DNA of 64,000 bases from Olsenella sp. An293 (GTDB lineage: Bacteria > Actinomycetota > Coriobacteriia > Coriobacteriales > Atopobiaceae), in the NCBI RefSeq assembly GCF_002159495.1, contig NZ_NFIT01000001.1, positions 62,001-126,000 on the forward strand, read 5' to 3'. Under the pieces are notes generated by a model, which saw only the letters and a list, made by a program, of their open reading frames with translations, made no database searches and was not told where the DNA came from. The translations under genes were made by a program, and so were the position numbers. Each line of letters begins with the position of its first letter. The stretch's first letter is position 1. Shown here piece after piece: positions 26,805 through 53,890 of the stretch.

Positions 26805-27707
26805 CTACGACCTAGCGAGCAGCGCCTCCACCTCCGGCCGAGTGGCCAGGTGGTCGGAAAACGCGCTGGCAGAGCCGGTGGCAAGAGCCATGCGGAAGGC
26901 GTCCTCGTAGCTGCCGGTCTCCATGAGGCCCGCGAGGAACCCCGCCACGGAGGAGTCGCCGGCGCCCACGGAGTTGACCACGGTGCCGCGCGCGGCCGGA
27001 CTCTGGTGCACGGCGCCCGTCTCGTCCACGAGCACGCCCCCCTCCCCCGCCATCGAGACCAGCACGTTGGCGGCGCCCACCTCCTGAAGCTTCCGGGCGT
27101 ACGGCACGACCTCGTCGCGCGTGCGCAGCGTGACCCCAAAGATGTCCCCGAGCTCGTGGTTGTTGGGCTTCACGAGGAAGGGGCGGTACGGAAGGACGCG
27201 CGTGAGCAGGTCGCGCTCGGCATCCACGACGATGCAGACGCCGCGGCCGGCGAGGCGCGCCATGATGCGCTCGTACAGGTCGTGCGGAAGCGTCGCCGGC
27301 ACGGAACCGGAGATGACGAGCGTGTCGCCGTCGCCCAGCGCGTCCAGCTTGGCGAGAAGAACCTCGACGTCCTTCTCGGCGATTCTTGGCCCCATGCCGT
27401 TGAGCTCGGTCTCCTCGGCGGACTTGACCTTGACGTTGATGCGGGTCATGCCCTCTTCGACGCGGATGAAGTCGGCGTCGACGCCCGCCTCGGCGCAGAG
27501 GCGGCAGAGCTCGTCGCCCGTGAAGCCCGCGACGAAGCCGAGCGCGCGGCTCTTGTGCCCGAGGTTGCCGAGCACGATGGAGACGTTCACGCCCTTGCCG
27601 CCCGGGAGCACCTGCTCGTAGGCGGTGCGGTTGATCGCGCCCAGGCGCATGTCGTCCACGCGGACGATGTAGTCCAGCGACGGGTTGAACGTGACGGTGC
27701 AGATCAC
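26805..27707 (-). CDS. PfkB-family sugar-phosphate kinase (1-phosphofructokinase-like)
   Basis: A 300-residue ribokinase-fold kinase. It shows PGGKGVNVSIVLGNLG near residue 35, VKPNNHELG, and the catalytic/anion-hole GAGDSSVAGF near residue 250. The start MICTVTFNPSLDY is characteristic of the FruK/LacC subgroup, which phosphorylates fructose 1-phosphate or tagatose 6-phosphate. The GTG start overlaps the DeoR stop as GTGA with GGAGGTG upstream. There is no PTS permease gene nearby, so the substrate is uncertain. Last gene of the Gfo/Idh-DeoR-kinase operon. Confidence 0.88.
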   Translation of the reverse strand: MICTVTFNPSLDYIVRVDDMRLGAINRTAYEQVLPGGKGVNVSIVLGNLGHKSRALGFVAGFTGDELCRLCAEAGVDADFIRVEEGMTRINVKVKSAEETELNGMGPRIAEKDVEVLLAKLDALGDGDTLVISGSVPATLPHDLYERIMARLAGRGVCIVVDAERDLLTRVLPYRPFLVKPNNHELGDIFGVTLRTRDEVVPYARKLQEVGAANVLVSMAGEGGVLVDETGAVHQSPAARGTVVNSVGAGDSSVAGFLAGLMETGSYEDAFRMALATGSASAFSDHLATRPEVEALLARS

Positions 27708-49722: not shown

Positions 49723-51120
49723 TCACACCTCCGACCTGCTAGTTGGGGACTGTCCCCAACTAGCAGAACTGGCGGGGGCGGCGAGGTCGGAGGGCCAGGC
49801 GACGCGGTGGACGTCGTCCACGTCAAACGAGGCGCCCTCGGCGAGGCGCCGGCGCAGGCCCACGGAGAGGGCGTGCGCCCAGAGCCCCTCGGACTGCGCG
49901 AGCGTCTGCGCCGCGGGGGCGTCGGCGAGCAGGCCCTCGGGCGTGTAGCAGATCACGCTCGAGCGCTTTTGGAAGTCGTAGACGCCCAGGGGGTTGGAGA
50001 AGCGCGCGGTGCCGCCGGTGGGCAGCGTGTGGTTGGGGCCGGCCACGTAGTCGCCCAGGGGCTCGGAGCTCCAGGCGCCCACGAAGATCGCGCCGGCGTT
50101 GCGCACGCGGCCGAGAAGCGCCATGGCGTCCTCGCAGTGCAGCTCGAGGTGCTCGGGAGCCACCACGTTGACGGCGTCGACGGCCGCCTCCAGGCTCTCG
50201 GCCACCACGATCACGCCGCGGTCGTCGAGCGAGGCGCGGGTGATCTCCTCGCGCGGGCTCTGGGCGACGAGGCGCTCGGCGGCGGCGAGCACGCGGTCGG
50301 GCAGCTCCGGGTCGCAGGTCACGAGGTAGCAGCTCGCCATAGGGTCGTGCTCGGCCTGGGCCATGAGGTCGGCGGCCACCACCACGGGGTCGGCCGTGGC
50401 GTCGGCGAGCACGCACACCTCGGAGGGGCCGGCCACCATGTCGATGCCCACGTCCCCGGAGACGAGGCGCTTGGCGGCGGCCACGTAGGCGTTGCCGGGA
50501 CCCACGATCTTGTCGACCGCCGGGATGGACTCGGTGCCGTACGCCACGGCGGCCACGGCCTGGGCTCCGCCCACGGCGTAGACCTCGTCCACGCCCGCGA
50601 GCGCGGCGGCGGCGAGCGTGTAGGGGTTGAGGCCGCCGCCCGCCTGCGGCGGGGTCACCATCACCACGCGTGGCACGCCCGCGACCTTGGCGGGGATGGT
50701 GTCCATGAGGACGGTCGAGGGGTACTGCGCGCGGCCGCCCGGCACGTAGACGGCGGCCGAGGCCACGGGCGTCACCTGCACGCCGAGGATCGTGCCGTCG
50801 GCGCGCGCCGTGAACCAGGACTGCTCGCGCTCGCGCTCGTGGAAGTCGCGAATCTGGTCGCGCGCCTGGGTGAGGGCGGCGAGAAACTCCTGCGGAACGG
50901 CCTCGAGCGCGGCGGCGAGCGCCTCGTCGGGCACGCGGAAGGCGTCCGGGCAGGCGCCGTCGAAGCGCACGCAGAGCTCGCGCACCGCCACGTCGCCGCG
51001 GGCGCGCACGTCCGCCACGATCTTCTCGGCCGCCTCCATGACCTCGGCGGGCAGGGCGCCCGCGCGGTTGAGGTCGGCCTGCGTGAGGCGGCGTCCCCCC
51101 TCGAGCACGACGGTCCTCAT
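49723..51120 (-). CDS. hisD: Histidinol dehydrogenase with palindrome-encoded C-terminal tail
   Basis: A 465-residue enzyme catalysing the last two steps of histidine synthesis with NAD and zinc. Metal ligands lie in [13 protein letters not shown] and [20 protein letters not shown] (20 residues); [10 protein letters not shown] and [10 protein letters not shown] are family motifs. The last about 35 residues are not typical: they run through a perfect 15-bp palindrome (49736-49766) that encodes ASWGQSPTS. The tail thus looks acquired, by insertion of the palindrome near the original stop. ATG 51120 overlaps hisZG as ATGA. Confidence 0.93.
49736..49766. repeat. Perfect 15-bp palindrome inside the hisD 3' end
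   Basis: Arms ctgctagttggggac (49736-49750) and its complement (49752-49766) around a single T. It is within the hisD reading frame and 15 bases upstream of the hisC start region. The core GGGACTGTCCC also occurs at 4391-4401. Confidence 0.82.
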
Positions 51121-52787
51121 GACTCACTCCCCTTCCTCGCGACCTCGGCGAGACGCGCGGCGAGGTCGCGGATCCTTCGGTCGCAGCGATAGGCGGCGGG
51201 CCCGGCGAAGAAGCGCGCGGTGCACTCCATGACCTCGTCGACGATCACGAGGTCGTTCTCGGCGAGCGTGGTGCCCGTCGCCGTGATGTCCACGATGCGG
51301 TCGGCCATGCCCACGATCGGGCCGAGCTCGATGTTGCCGTGCAGCGTCACGATGTCGACCTGCTGCCCGATGGAATCGTAGTACTGCTGCGTGATGCGCG
51401 GGTACTTGGTCGCCACGCGGACGGCGCCGCGCCAAGCGTAGTTGCGCGCCGCCTCACCGGCCTTGTCGCGCGGCTCGGCCACCACGAAGCGACAGCCGCC
51501 GTAGCGCAGGTCCACGAGCTGGAGCAGGTCGAGCCCCGCCTCGATGAGCGAGTCCTTGCCGCAGACGCCGCAGTCGGCGCCTCCCCGGCCCACGAAGGCC
51601 GGCGCGTCCTGGGCGCGCACGATCACGTACTCGACGTCGCCCTCGCGGATGACGAGCTTGCGCCCGGGGTCCGCGAGCTCGGCGGTGGGCAGGCCCGCCG
51701 CGGCGAGGGCGGCGACGGTCTCTTTGAACAGCGACCCCTTGGGCACGGCGATGCGGATGGGCCGAGCGGCCACGTTGACGCCCGGCGTCACCACGCCCGA
51801 CTCGCCCGGCTCGCCGAGGACCTCCTGGAGGCGCTCGAGCGAGAGGGCAAAGCCGCAGGCCGCAAGGCCCGGACGGCCGAGGTTGGCGAGCACCGCGTCG
51901 TAGCGCCCGCCCGAGGCGAGGCTCGCGGCGATGCCCTCGGCGTAGCCCTTGAAGATGATGCCGGTGTAGTAGTCGAAGGAGTTGATGATCGAGAAGTCGA
52001 AGGAGAGGCGCCCGGCCGAGAAGAGGTCGGCGAGCTTGGAGGCGAGGGCCGAGAGCTCGGCGGTGCCGCGGGACTCGACGGGCACGCCCGCGTCGGCGAG
52101 AAGGACGTCGAGCCGCTCGATGACCTCGGGGCCGCCGCCCATGCGCACGACCTCGTGCAGGGCGCGGGCGGCCGCGGGCGGAAGGTCCGGCGTGGCGTCA
52201 ATGAGCTCGCCGAGGGTCACGAGGTCCGAGTCATGGACGAGGGCGAGCACCTCCTCGCGAAACTCCGGCGTGGGCGCGCAGGCGTCGAGCAGCGCCGTGA
52301 GCGGCACCACCGAGCCAAAGACCACGCGCCAGTCCGGCACCTCGAGCGCGCCGAGCGCCTCGGCGAGCAGCCGCACGACCTCGACCTCGGCGGCGGCGCC
52401 GTCCTCGCAGACGAGCTCGACGCCGAGCTGCGTGAACTGGCGGGGCTGGCCGCGCAGGCTCGGCTCCTCGCGCACCACCGGCGCGTTGTAGCGAAAGCGT
52501 GCCGGGAGCTGGCCGGCGTCCACGCGGCCGGCAACGAGGCGGGCGACGGGCAGGGTGAGGTCGGGGCGGAGCATGAGCAGCGTGCCGTCCTCGTCGAAGA
52601 GCTGGAAGGCCGAGTCGCGCACGCGGGCGCCGCGCTCGAGGGCGGAGCGGTCCTCGAGCAGCGGGGTCTCGACGGGAAGGTAGCCATGCATGGCAAAGGT
52701 GTTGCGCACGATGCCGGAGATGCGCTCGCGGGCGAGCGCCTCGCGGGGAAGGATGTCGCGGAAGCCGCGGGGAGTTGCTGCAATCAC
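51117..52787 (-). CDS. hisZG: Fused ATP phosphoribosyltransferase: HisZ regulatory part plus HisG catalytic part
   Basis: A 556-residue fusion performing the first committed step of histidine synthesis, joining PRPP and ATP. Residues 1 to about 330 are HisZ, a catalytically dead histidyl-tRNA synthetase (ATPRGFRDILP, PDLTLPVARL, GGRYDAVLANLGRP). From about residue 343 it is short-form HisG (IAVPKGSLFKETV, VGRGGADCGVCGKDSL, and the PRPP loop TATGTTLAEND). Short HisG normally needs a separate HisZ; here both are in one chain. The GTG start has AGAGAGGA upstream. First gene of the his operon; overlaps hisD as ATGA. Confidence 0.93.
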   Translation of the reverse strand: MIAATPRGFRDILPREALARERISGIVRNTFAMHGYLPVETPLLEDRSALERGARVRDSAFQLFDEDGTLLMLRPDLTLPVARLVAGRVDAGQLPARFRYNAPVVREEPSLRGQPRQFTQLGVELVCEDGAAAEVEVVRLLAEALGALEVPDWRVVFGSVVPLTALLDACAPTPEFREEVLALVHDSDLVTLGELIDATPDLPPAAARALHEVVRMGGGPEVIERLDVLLADAGVPVESRGTAELSALASKLADLFSAGRLSFDFSIINSFDYYTGIIFKGYAEGIAASLASGGRYDAVLANLGRPGLAACGFALSLERLQEVLGEPGESGVVTPGVNVAARPIRIAVPKGSLFKETVAALAAAGLPTAELADPGRKLVIREGDVEYVIVRAQDAPAFVGRGGADCGVCGKDSLIEAGLDLLQLVDLRYGGCRFVVAEPRDKAGEAARNYAWRGAVRVATKYPRITQQYYDSIGQQVDIVTLHGNIELGPIVGMADRIVDITATGTTLAENDLVIVDEVMECTARFFAGPAAYRCDRRIRDLAARLAEVARKGSES

Positions 52788-52835: not shown

Positions 52836-52855
52836 TACTTTAGCACAGTAAAGTG
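52836..52855. promoter_or_regulatory. Candidate his operator upstream of hisZG
   Basis: A dyad, TACTTTA (52836-52842), six bases, TAAAGTG (52849-52855), 49 bases upstream of hisZG. Its half CACTTTACT is repeated at 42704-42712 in the hisI leader. On the minus strand TAAAGT could double as a weak -10. The regulator is not identified. Confidence 0.45.
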
Positions 52856-52906: not shown

Positions 52907-53197
52907 GCTTAACGATCGCGGGCCGTCGCCCGACGGGGCCCTCTTGCTTACTGATCGACGGTCATCGCAGGGCGAGGGCTTCTCTTGCTTACTATTCGCG
53001 GATCGTCGCGCGTTCGGCGCTGAGCGTGCTTACGGATCGCCGCACATCGCAGCCAATCGGGCCGAGAAGGGCCCTGTGAAGGTCCGCTGCATGCGACGAG
53101 CCGGGTTTCGTAAGCGCGCAGCCGGCAGATGCTGCGACGGTCGGGGTTTAGTAAGCACATCCACGGCCAGAGCTGCGACGGGCGGGGTTTCGTAAGC
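52907..53197. repeat. Seven copies of a 23-bp motif in two facing arrays with exact dyad symmetry
   Basis: Plus-strand copies start at 52907, 52946, 52987 and 53028; minus-strand copies end at 53115, 53156 and 53197. Spacing is 39, 41, 41 and 41, 41 bases. All seven share GCTTA at positions 1-5, C at 11, G at 15, C at 18 and TCGC at 20-23, aligned without gaps. The midpoint of every mirrored pair is 53071.5, which is exactly the centre of a GGGCCC (53069-53074). The rest of the gene-free stretch (52788-53461) holds no credible gene; 53240-53400 is extremely GC-rich. Confidence 0.85.
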
Positions 53198-53461: not shown

Positions 53462-53890
53462 ATGGCACTGCACTGGCCGGACGCGCGCGTCGCCGTGAGG
53501 TTCGAGCGAGAGGCGAGAGACGACGAGAGGGACTATCCGCCCGACACCATCGTCGTGGTCATGAGGCCCGACCAGGTGGACGACGCGGGCTTCGTGCGCG
53601 AGATGCGCCGGATCGTGGCGACCCGCTCGATCGAGCGCGAGTACGAGCGGCGCACGGACGTCACGAGGGAGCGCGACGAGCGGGGGCTCGAGCGGGAGGT
53701 CACCGACGAGGAGCGCCGCTTCGTGAGCAACTTCCTCGGCGACGATGACGAGCTCGACGAGGACGGCCTCCCGGAGTTCCTCGACGACCTGCTCGACGAG
53801 ACGCTCGGGGTGTCTCCCTGGACGCCCTGGCAGGGCACGGCGACGCACCTCGTCATCGGGCGCTGCGACCAGGTGATCGTGGGCGGATAG
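53462..53890 (+). CDS. Acidic protein of unknown function
   Basis: A 142-residue soluble protein that I do not recognise. It begins MALHWPDARVAVRFEREARD, has a highly charged middle (about 50-80, Arg/Glu-rich and probably helical), an acidic cluster (DDDELDEDGLPEFLDDLLDE, about 92-111) and a more hydrophobic C-terminus. The start is well supported by GAGGAGAGGAGAGGAC upstream. It is monocistronic, preceded by the symmetric 41-bp repeat arrays and followed by a terminator shared with murJ. Codon use is like that of its neighbours, so it is probably a real gene. Confidence 0.62.
   Translation: MALHWPDARVAVRFEREARDDERDYPPDTIVVVMRPDQVDDAGFVREMRRIVATRSIEREYERRTDVTRERDERGLEREVTDEERRFVSNFLGDDDELDEDGLPEFLDDLLDETLGVSPWTPWQGTATHLVIGRCDQVIVGG

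Follow-up and report, generated by a model that had tools for sequence, protein, structure and literature searches.

Dispersed intergenic arrays of a two-part DNA site, with converging arms and helically phased gaps, in Olsenella and relatives

The mirrored array of short sites in Olsenella sp. An293 belongs to a dispersed family of intergenic arrays. Its arrays have a common motif, arms that converge in nearly all cases, and an arm-to-arm gap that is quantised by the helical repeat of DNA. The arrays are dispersed over many loci, the second half of the site differs between species, the motif core is constrained, and arrays have been gained and lost between relatives. An unidentified protein probably binds the sites and folds the DNA into a loop, an inference for which there are no binding data.

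The window array and its setting

We scanned the window, that is, the whole 64,000-nt stretch of DNA analysed here, and found seven exact copies of GCTTANNNNNCNNNGNNNNTCGC with no mismatch between 52907 and 53197. The site pattern is GCTTAN5CN3GN4TCGC, over 23 positions. The chance expectation for the window is 0.09 copies, and none of 100 dinucleotide shuffles contained seven or more. Four copies lie on the plus strand, from the outermost (L4, 52907-52929) through L3 (52946-52968) and L2 (52987-53009) to the innermost (L1, 53028-53050), and three on the minus strand, from the innermost (R1, 53093-53115) through R2 (53134-53156) to the outermost (R3, 53175-53197), with 5' ends at 53115, 53156 and 53197. 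This is the set of seven gap-free copies, four pointing right and three left, that the preliminary description had reported. Allowing two mismatches gave 28 matches compared to 30.9 expected, indicating that the window has no weaker copies above chance.

The mirrored pairs 53028/53115, 52987/53156 and 52946/53197 have a common midpoint, 53071.5, which is the centre of GGGCCC (53069-53074) in the middle of the 42-bp segment between the facing arms (53051-53092). Given the 41-bp period, one common midpoint fixes the midpoints of the remaining pairs. It had been claimed that every mirrored pair has this midpoint and that the copies are spaced at 41 bp. Both claims hold for the three pairs and for four of the five in-arm steps, but not for the copy at 52907, which is 39 bp from the next copy and has no mirror partner. 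The claimed centring on GGGCCC is true of the window array, but GGGCCC was absent or off-centre in the other array centres that we inspected by eye, and it looks incidental. What does hold for the centre of an array is a helical phase in the distance between its arms. That distance in the window array is 87 bp (first base to first base), near 4 + 8 x 10.5 = 88.

The array is located between divergent genes, 120 bp from hisZ. The gene to its left (51117-52787, minus strand) is a single open frame of 556 amino acids in which we recognise a HisZ-like and a HisG-like part, and near full-length matches to it were present in 30 of the 31 genomes of the genus. The gene to the right encodes an acidic protein and, by our reading, starts near 53462 on the plus strand. 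A palindrome, ACTTTAGCACAGTAAAGT, is upstream of hisZ at 52837-52854; versions of it were found in nine of the 12 hisZ upstream regions that were read, and we take it to resemble a TrpR/HisR-type operator. There was also a second dispersed motif, TTCTTCTCGCC / GGCGAGAAGAA, with four occurrences in the window (TTCTTCTCGCC at 27351, 32816, 58235 and 61195) compared to 0.02 expected, and present in many array centres. Its core, CTTCTCGCC, occurred at 3.6 per kb in arrays, 1.6 per kb in other intergenic DNA and 0.5 per kb in genes, a sevenfold difference between arrays and genes.

A dispersed family and its geometry

In the host's own genome (G000), the exact pattern was present 30 times, compared to once for a reversed control, and with one mismatch there were 59 copies compared to 30 for the control. 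The copies form ten loci with at least two copies, plus strays. Six of the ten loci are two-armed and convergent, with GCTTA on the outside and gaps of 77 or 87 bp; three are one-armed, and one has two divergent copies. A further array, at C14:7221-7348, carries another second half, CATCCGG. Three of the arrays (L003, L013 and L020), all near contig ends, are 69-83% alike over 250-420 bp. For L003 and L020 the likeness continues into flanking sequence, and at least these two are therefore parts of a larger duplication. L013 and L020 are near genes that we read as resembling those for repeat-type surface proteins.

Arrays were found across much of the genus. A sequence-only model built from 70 copy pairs (R1) had matches in 23 of the 31 genus genomes at E <= 0.01, three of which (G041, G013 and G012) had a single weak match each (E 0.002-0.007). 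At E <= 0.001, 20 of 140 genomes of the family matched, all of them among those 31; the model found nothing in the 109 genomes from other genera of the family. The pair pattern was likewise limited to the genus (11 of 140 family genomes and eight of 297 order genomes). A looser search, for three GCTTA at 41-42 bp with the second half ignored, gave 12 of the 297 order genomes. Eight of these are from the genus, including four (G018, G016, G006 and G001) that the pair pattern had missed. A ninth, G088, is from another genus of the same family; it has 31 triples in the same layout with another half-site, and we count it as a member. The other three, G106 and G031 (one triple each) and G193 (two), were rejected because the reversed control gives one to three hits in each of twelve genomes. 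Two loci of G193, which is from another family (L349 and L350), have clusters of TGCTTAGCAAC at steps of 31, 41 and 83 bp in a diverging layout, perhaps a distant relative of the arrays or a separate phased repeat.

Some species of the genus (G009, G002, G011 and G044) had no arrays by the searches used, so that either the genus can do without the function or the motif of these species has drifted out of reach. A search with the whole array as DNA in 40 genomes (the host and 39 relatives) returned only the array's own genome and one chance-like piece of 28 bp, because the sites are degenerate. Scanning a wider collection for tandem pairs gave at least 108 stretches; among the 80 matches listed, 14 were titled Olsenella, Thermophilibacter or Atopobiaceae, and those of the others that were inspected, for the most part short-period repeats of GCTTATT/GCTTATC alongside a few tandem repeats of different kinds, were dropped. 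In viral contigs, the pattern matched once, in a short-period repeat, and two other motif types did not match.

We examined 99 arrays in detail. Ninety-three are two-armed and all of these converge, five are one-armed, and one (L029) consists of two divergent single copies. Copies number from one to six per arm and usually follow each other at steps of 41-42 bp, such that sites of ~25 bp are separated by 16-17 bp. Steps off the ideal phase do exist (37, 39, 40, 45, 125 and 196 bp). The searches themselves account in part for the in-arm period of 41-42 bp in relatives, whereas no spacing rule entered into the selection of arm-to-arm gaps.

The gap between the arms is quantised by the helical repeat. 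The 93 gaps span 57-202 bp and lie near 4 + 10.5n (R = 0.903 at 10.5 bp, with a best period of 10.53 bp). They cluster at 57, 67, 77, 88, 99, 109, 120, 130, 141, 151, 162, 184, 193 and 202 bp, each within 2.5 bp of the rule. When the gaps were jittered by up to 5 bp either way in 10,000 control sets, the highest R was 0.35. Leaving out nine arrays of G040 that are orthologous to arrays of G004 gave 84 gaps with R = 0.904 (Rayleigh p ~1.6e-30), and the 30 distinct gap values gave R = 0.845. A missed inner copy adds 41-42 bp and leaves the phase unchanged, so the number of distinct gaps overstates their independence. All four phase classes (57, 67, 77 and 88 bp and the series at +42 bp) are present, however, and the rule therefore does not come from missed copies alone. 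By our arithmetic, the offset of ~4 bp means that the GCTTA pentamers of the two arms have their centres on one face of the helix. The claim that the copies face one side of the DNA is strengthened by the quantised gap, a test that the preliminary description did not have.

Arrays with other second-half types followed a similar rule. Fifteen gaps, five of them from another genus, had R = 0.83 at 10.5 bp with an offset of 4.15. R was higher (0.92) at 10.25 bp, because most values are 66-68 or 77-78, and the period is poorly fixed by this set. Three of the 15 gaps are inflated by degenerate inner copies that were not counted. Some genomes have favoured layouts: 27 of the 30 arrays in G004 and G040 have a stereotyped two-plus-two arrangement with gaps of 121, 131, 141 or 152 bp, and ten of 24 gaps in G042 are 67-68 bp.

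The arrays are intergenic and show no preferred orientation of the flanking genes. Seventy-eight of the 99 have a predicted gene on each side and overlap neither; a crude gene caller drew an open frame across another 20, including that of the window, and one has no right neighbour. These 21 were left out of the orientation count, in which the flanking genes of the 78 were codirectional in 41, convergent in 20 and divergent in 17, compared to 43, 28 and 27 for other gaps of at least 150 bp (p = 0.50). The preference for upstream or divergent positions that would mark promoter operators was not seen (divergent at 17 of 78 arrays compared to 27 of 98 background gaps). Of 195 neighbouring predicted proteins, 131 had no homologue among the others. 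One family of ~370 amino acids is encoded beside arrays in four species (L333 1151-2239, L265 3543-4658, L293 3509-4621 and L328 121-1203), with arrays on both sides of the gene in G006 and G017. From the neighbouring rubrerythrin and glycogen genes, as we read them, its loci are at least partly orthologous. The family matched no Pfam, NCBIfam or PADLOC family at cut-off and had only chance-level hits in a PDB sequence search, and its structure model was too poor for use (mean pLDDT 41.7). We regard it as a weak lead only.

Half-sites, constraint, and gain and loss

The site has two halves that evolve differently. The array consensus, YGCTTAVGRWWYSSSGGYCGTYGCR, is asymmetric. Its GCTTA half varies little (G017 often has GGTTA instead). 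The second half is TCGC in the host, TTGC in G042, G004 and G040, TTATGGC in G019, CRTCCGG in G006, G018 and G016, TTGGAGGG in G001 and CCTCATGTGGAT-like in G088. Among the matches listed, most of these genomes have one predominant type; G021 and G042 are mixed, and the host also has the CATCCGG type, in one array or more. Outside the core, the likeness of copies was 0.59 between arrays of one genome and 0.48 between genomes, a comparison that used copies found with a motif demanding the TYGC type. That each site has two conserved blocks, of which one stays fixed and the other drifts, suggests two partners or a single protein that reads DNA with two of its parts.

The region upstream of hisZ illustrates these differences. 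The host and G006 both have an array there, of different types, and G018 and G016 (95 and 94% HisZ identity) have none. Among 30 hisZ loci, only those of the host and G006 had an array close upstream, within the limits of a scan that used the TYGC-type motif; only 12 upstream regions were inspected by eye, and it was this inspection that revealed the G006 array. G041 has two motif matches ~1 kb upstream of hisZ.

The motif core is more constrained than the DNA between sites. In the nine orthologous array pairs of G004 and G040, identity was 317/333 (95%) in the core and 274/323 (85%) in the spacers (Fisher p = 1e-5). Elsewhere in the motif it was 513/592, and for the centre 715/827; in the flanks it was 881/1080 over the closest 60 bp and 4764/5220 further out, where genes begin. 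Both members of each pair were found by the motif, and identity of the core is therefore somewhat favoured.

Arrays have also been gained and lost between these two genomes. G040 has an array between hisA and hisF, which by our reading overlap in G004. An array that is intact in G004 is reduced in G040 to the first copy and its spacer, and two others of G004 (L283 and L291) are absent from G040, with other sequence in place of L291. Twelve arrays of the two genomes had no ortholog among the loci compared. We examined seven, of which four (L291, L294, L283 and L309) could be aligned with the alternative site and three (L282, L281 and L302) gave no interpretable site. None of the four alignments was clean, and there was no visible target duplication and no constant outer boundary.

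Two loci contain other repeats or insertions. The site in G040 that corresponds to an array of G004 (L353, G040:C1:405991-406235) has two other palindrome-like repeats of ~45 bp, of the type GGTAACG..CGTCCAAAACGTTACC. In G001, an IS481-family insertion sequence (L341 810-2247, contig C4) lies inside an array, with CTTAAG on each side within a GCTTAAG half-site.

Possible function and comparison with known systems

Based on these results, we favour, with some confidence, the view that the arrays are intergenic cis-acting DNA, bound by one or two sequence-specific proteins, whose arms meet through a short loop that folds the DNA locally. Binding and looping are inferred, and the architectural role is the least certain part, with no observation that ties the arrays to chromosome position or expression. 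One protein or a pair of proteins would read a bipartite site of ~25 bp, made of the near-constant GCTTA half and the fast-changing second half. Sites repeated every 41-42 bp, or four helical turns, place bound copies on one face of the DNA. The distance between the facing arms amounts to a fixed phase plus whole helical turns; a 10.5-bp rule over gaps of up to ~200 bp implies that both arms must show the same face across torsionally stiff DNA. In the simplest arrangement, the protein would coat each arm, and the arms would touch through a short, torsionally stiff loop. Such a complex may act locally, as an architectural or nucleoid-organising site and not as the operator of particular genes; alternatively, the site may persist through a binding protein of its own, much as REP sequences do through theirs. 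No binding protein has been identified. The multi-site nucleoprotein element suggested in the preliminary description is supported to this extent, with protein binding itself only inferred.

Alternatively, each array could provide the ends of a MITE-like element, small, mobile and non-autonomous, with tandem transposase-binding sites in each arm, as in Tn7/Mu-type ends, and a helper transposase elsewhere. An unknown mobile family had been proposed for the window array, and the dispersal of the copies, the gains and losses between close species (the hisA/hisF array and the remnant in G040) and the likeness of L003, L013 and L020 all fit that idea. The comparison revealed neither a clean site of insertion nor a duplicated target, and no gene that could be a partner. 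Mobile ends are not expected to impose a helical rule on an inner gap of up to ~200 bp, and the number of copies per arm varies from one to six; moreover, the four aligned sites showed neither a constant outer boundary nor a clean empty site, and the extension of the L003/L020 likeness into the flank marks at least that pair as a larger duplication. No autonomous element with shared terminal inverted repeats was seen in the array loci examined. PF09299 (the Mu/TnsB-type transposase C domain) was found in none of the 31 genomes, but also in none of 14 control genomes. We consider mobile ends unlikely. A dispersed regulon, in which one transcription factor controls adjacent genes through the arrays as its operators, seems more doubtful still. 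Repressors typically have a bipartite site, cooperativity on one face of the DNA and looping, and the window array is suitably placed, between divergent genes and close to hisZ. Against a regulon, the orientation of flanking genes is that of the background, convergent pairs included, the neighbours are mostly unrelated to one another (their functions were not classed), and, within the limits of that scan, only two of the 30 hisZ loci have an array close upstream.

We see very little room for the arrays acting as RNA, with mirrored copies pairing in a transcript or in a cruciform hairpin. Inverted copies are able to pair, and folding z-scores were -2.5 for the window and -7.3 for L052. Mirror partners were slightly more alike than non-partners (0.620 compared to 0.608), which is not significant in the 82 arrays compared (p = 0.078), and the arms are often unequal in copy number or have one-sided changes in spacing that would shift a hairpin. 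The 10.5-bp rule, in addition, is a property of double-stranded DNA. Decayed coding sequence or chance can be given practically no credence. Long shadow reading frames do run through the array region, but the copies far exceed the chance expectation, a period of 41 bp is not divisible by three, and the layout recurs at many loci; the genome counts against the control, the matches in the genus and the 99 arrays rule out a coding repeat or a chance origin. The preliminary description would have been refuted by absence of the motif from close relatives together with decay from coding sequence, and neither was found. Instead, the mirrored array recurs beside other genes, at the ten loci of the host's genome and in relatives.

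Returning to the loop-forming arrays that we favour, a broader claim can be made only tentatively: that they represent an undescribed class of chromosomal nucleoprotein site in Coriobacteriia, with tens of helix-phased arrays per genome and a rapidly re-specifying binder, for which GCTTA stays fixed and the other half changes wholesale between species. If this is true, each lineage runs a private version of one DNA-folding device. The half-site changes between species provide a natural series in which to follow a DNA-binding protein and scores of its targets as they change together. Few dispersed repeats reveal selection on geometry from their sequence alone, and the sharp helical rule makes the two-arm loop model directly testable.

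Arrays of this kind appear to be undescribed in the literature on these bacteria, their class or Collinsella, judging from titles only and with partial coverage, among which none describes them. They are not CRISPRs, whose repeats are near-identical, run one way and alternate with longer unique spacers: the array copies are degenerate (~0.6 identity outside the core) and mirrored, with 16-17 bp between 25-bp sites. The ends of Tn7, Mu and Tn552-type elements have several asymmetric binding sites of 22-23 bp per end, with the ends inverted. The inverted multi-site arms of the arrays are similar, but we found no transposase, cargo or fixed end, and the inner distance is helically phased. Loops of the lac type depend on helical phase. 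Short DNA-protein loops of a few helical turns underlie lac-like repression, according to the portion of the source available (PMC5081198); lac-type loops join two operators near one promoter, whereas the arrays are dispersed and have multi-copy arms.

Three families of intergenic repeats were also compared. BOX elements of pneumococcus are, like the arrays, composite and intergenic with a variable number of tandem modules, but in the excerpts available they are bounded by terminal inverted repeats, duplicate their target and have a predicted RNA structure (PMC3049150); the arrays gave no such evidence. STAR elements of staphylococci, as described in the accessible part of the source, are repeats of a short motif with variable spacers of 40-44 bp, intergenic and of unknown function, at loci that are stable while repeat number varies (PMC3532100). 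The 99 arrays likewise have a short motif that recurs, with regular, variable spacers, across many loci between genes. STAR elements are 14-bp direct repeats from another phylum, with another motif, and that part of the source mentions neither mirrored arms nor a helical rule (PMC3532100). Their motif, T(G/A/T)TGTTG(G/T)GGCCC(C/A), is by eye unlike the array consensus, and the arrays are not STAR elements. As far as sequence features and a partly available source allow, STAR elements would be nearest in kind. REP/BIME sequences, in the sections of the sources available, are abundant, intergenic and species-specific, occur in opposite orientations at regular spacing, have proposed protein-binding and chromosome-organising roles, and co-evolve with a cognate protein, the RAYT transposases (PMC2817692; PMC3733652). 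The arrays share these traits, those that involve a protein only by inference, and are not themselves REP/BIME, which require a palindromic unit of 20-40 bp; the array site is asymmetric and set in two converging arms. On what those sections contain, REP/BIME sequences are nearest to the arrays in evolutionary behaviour.
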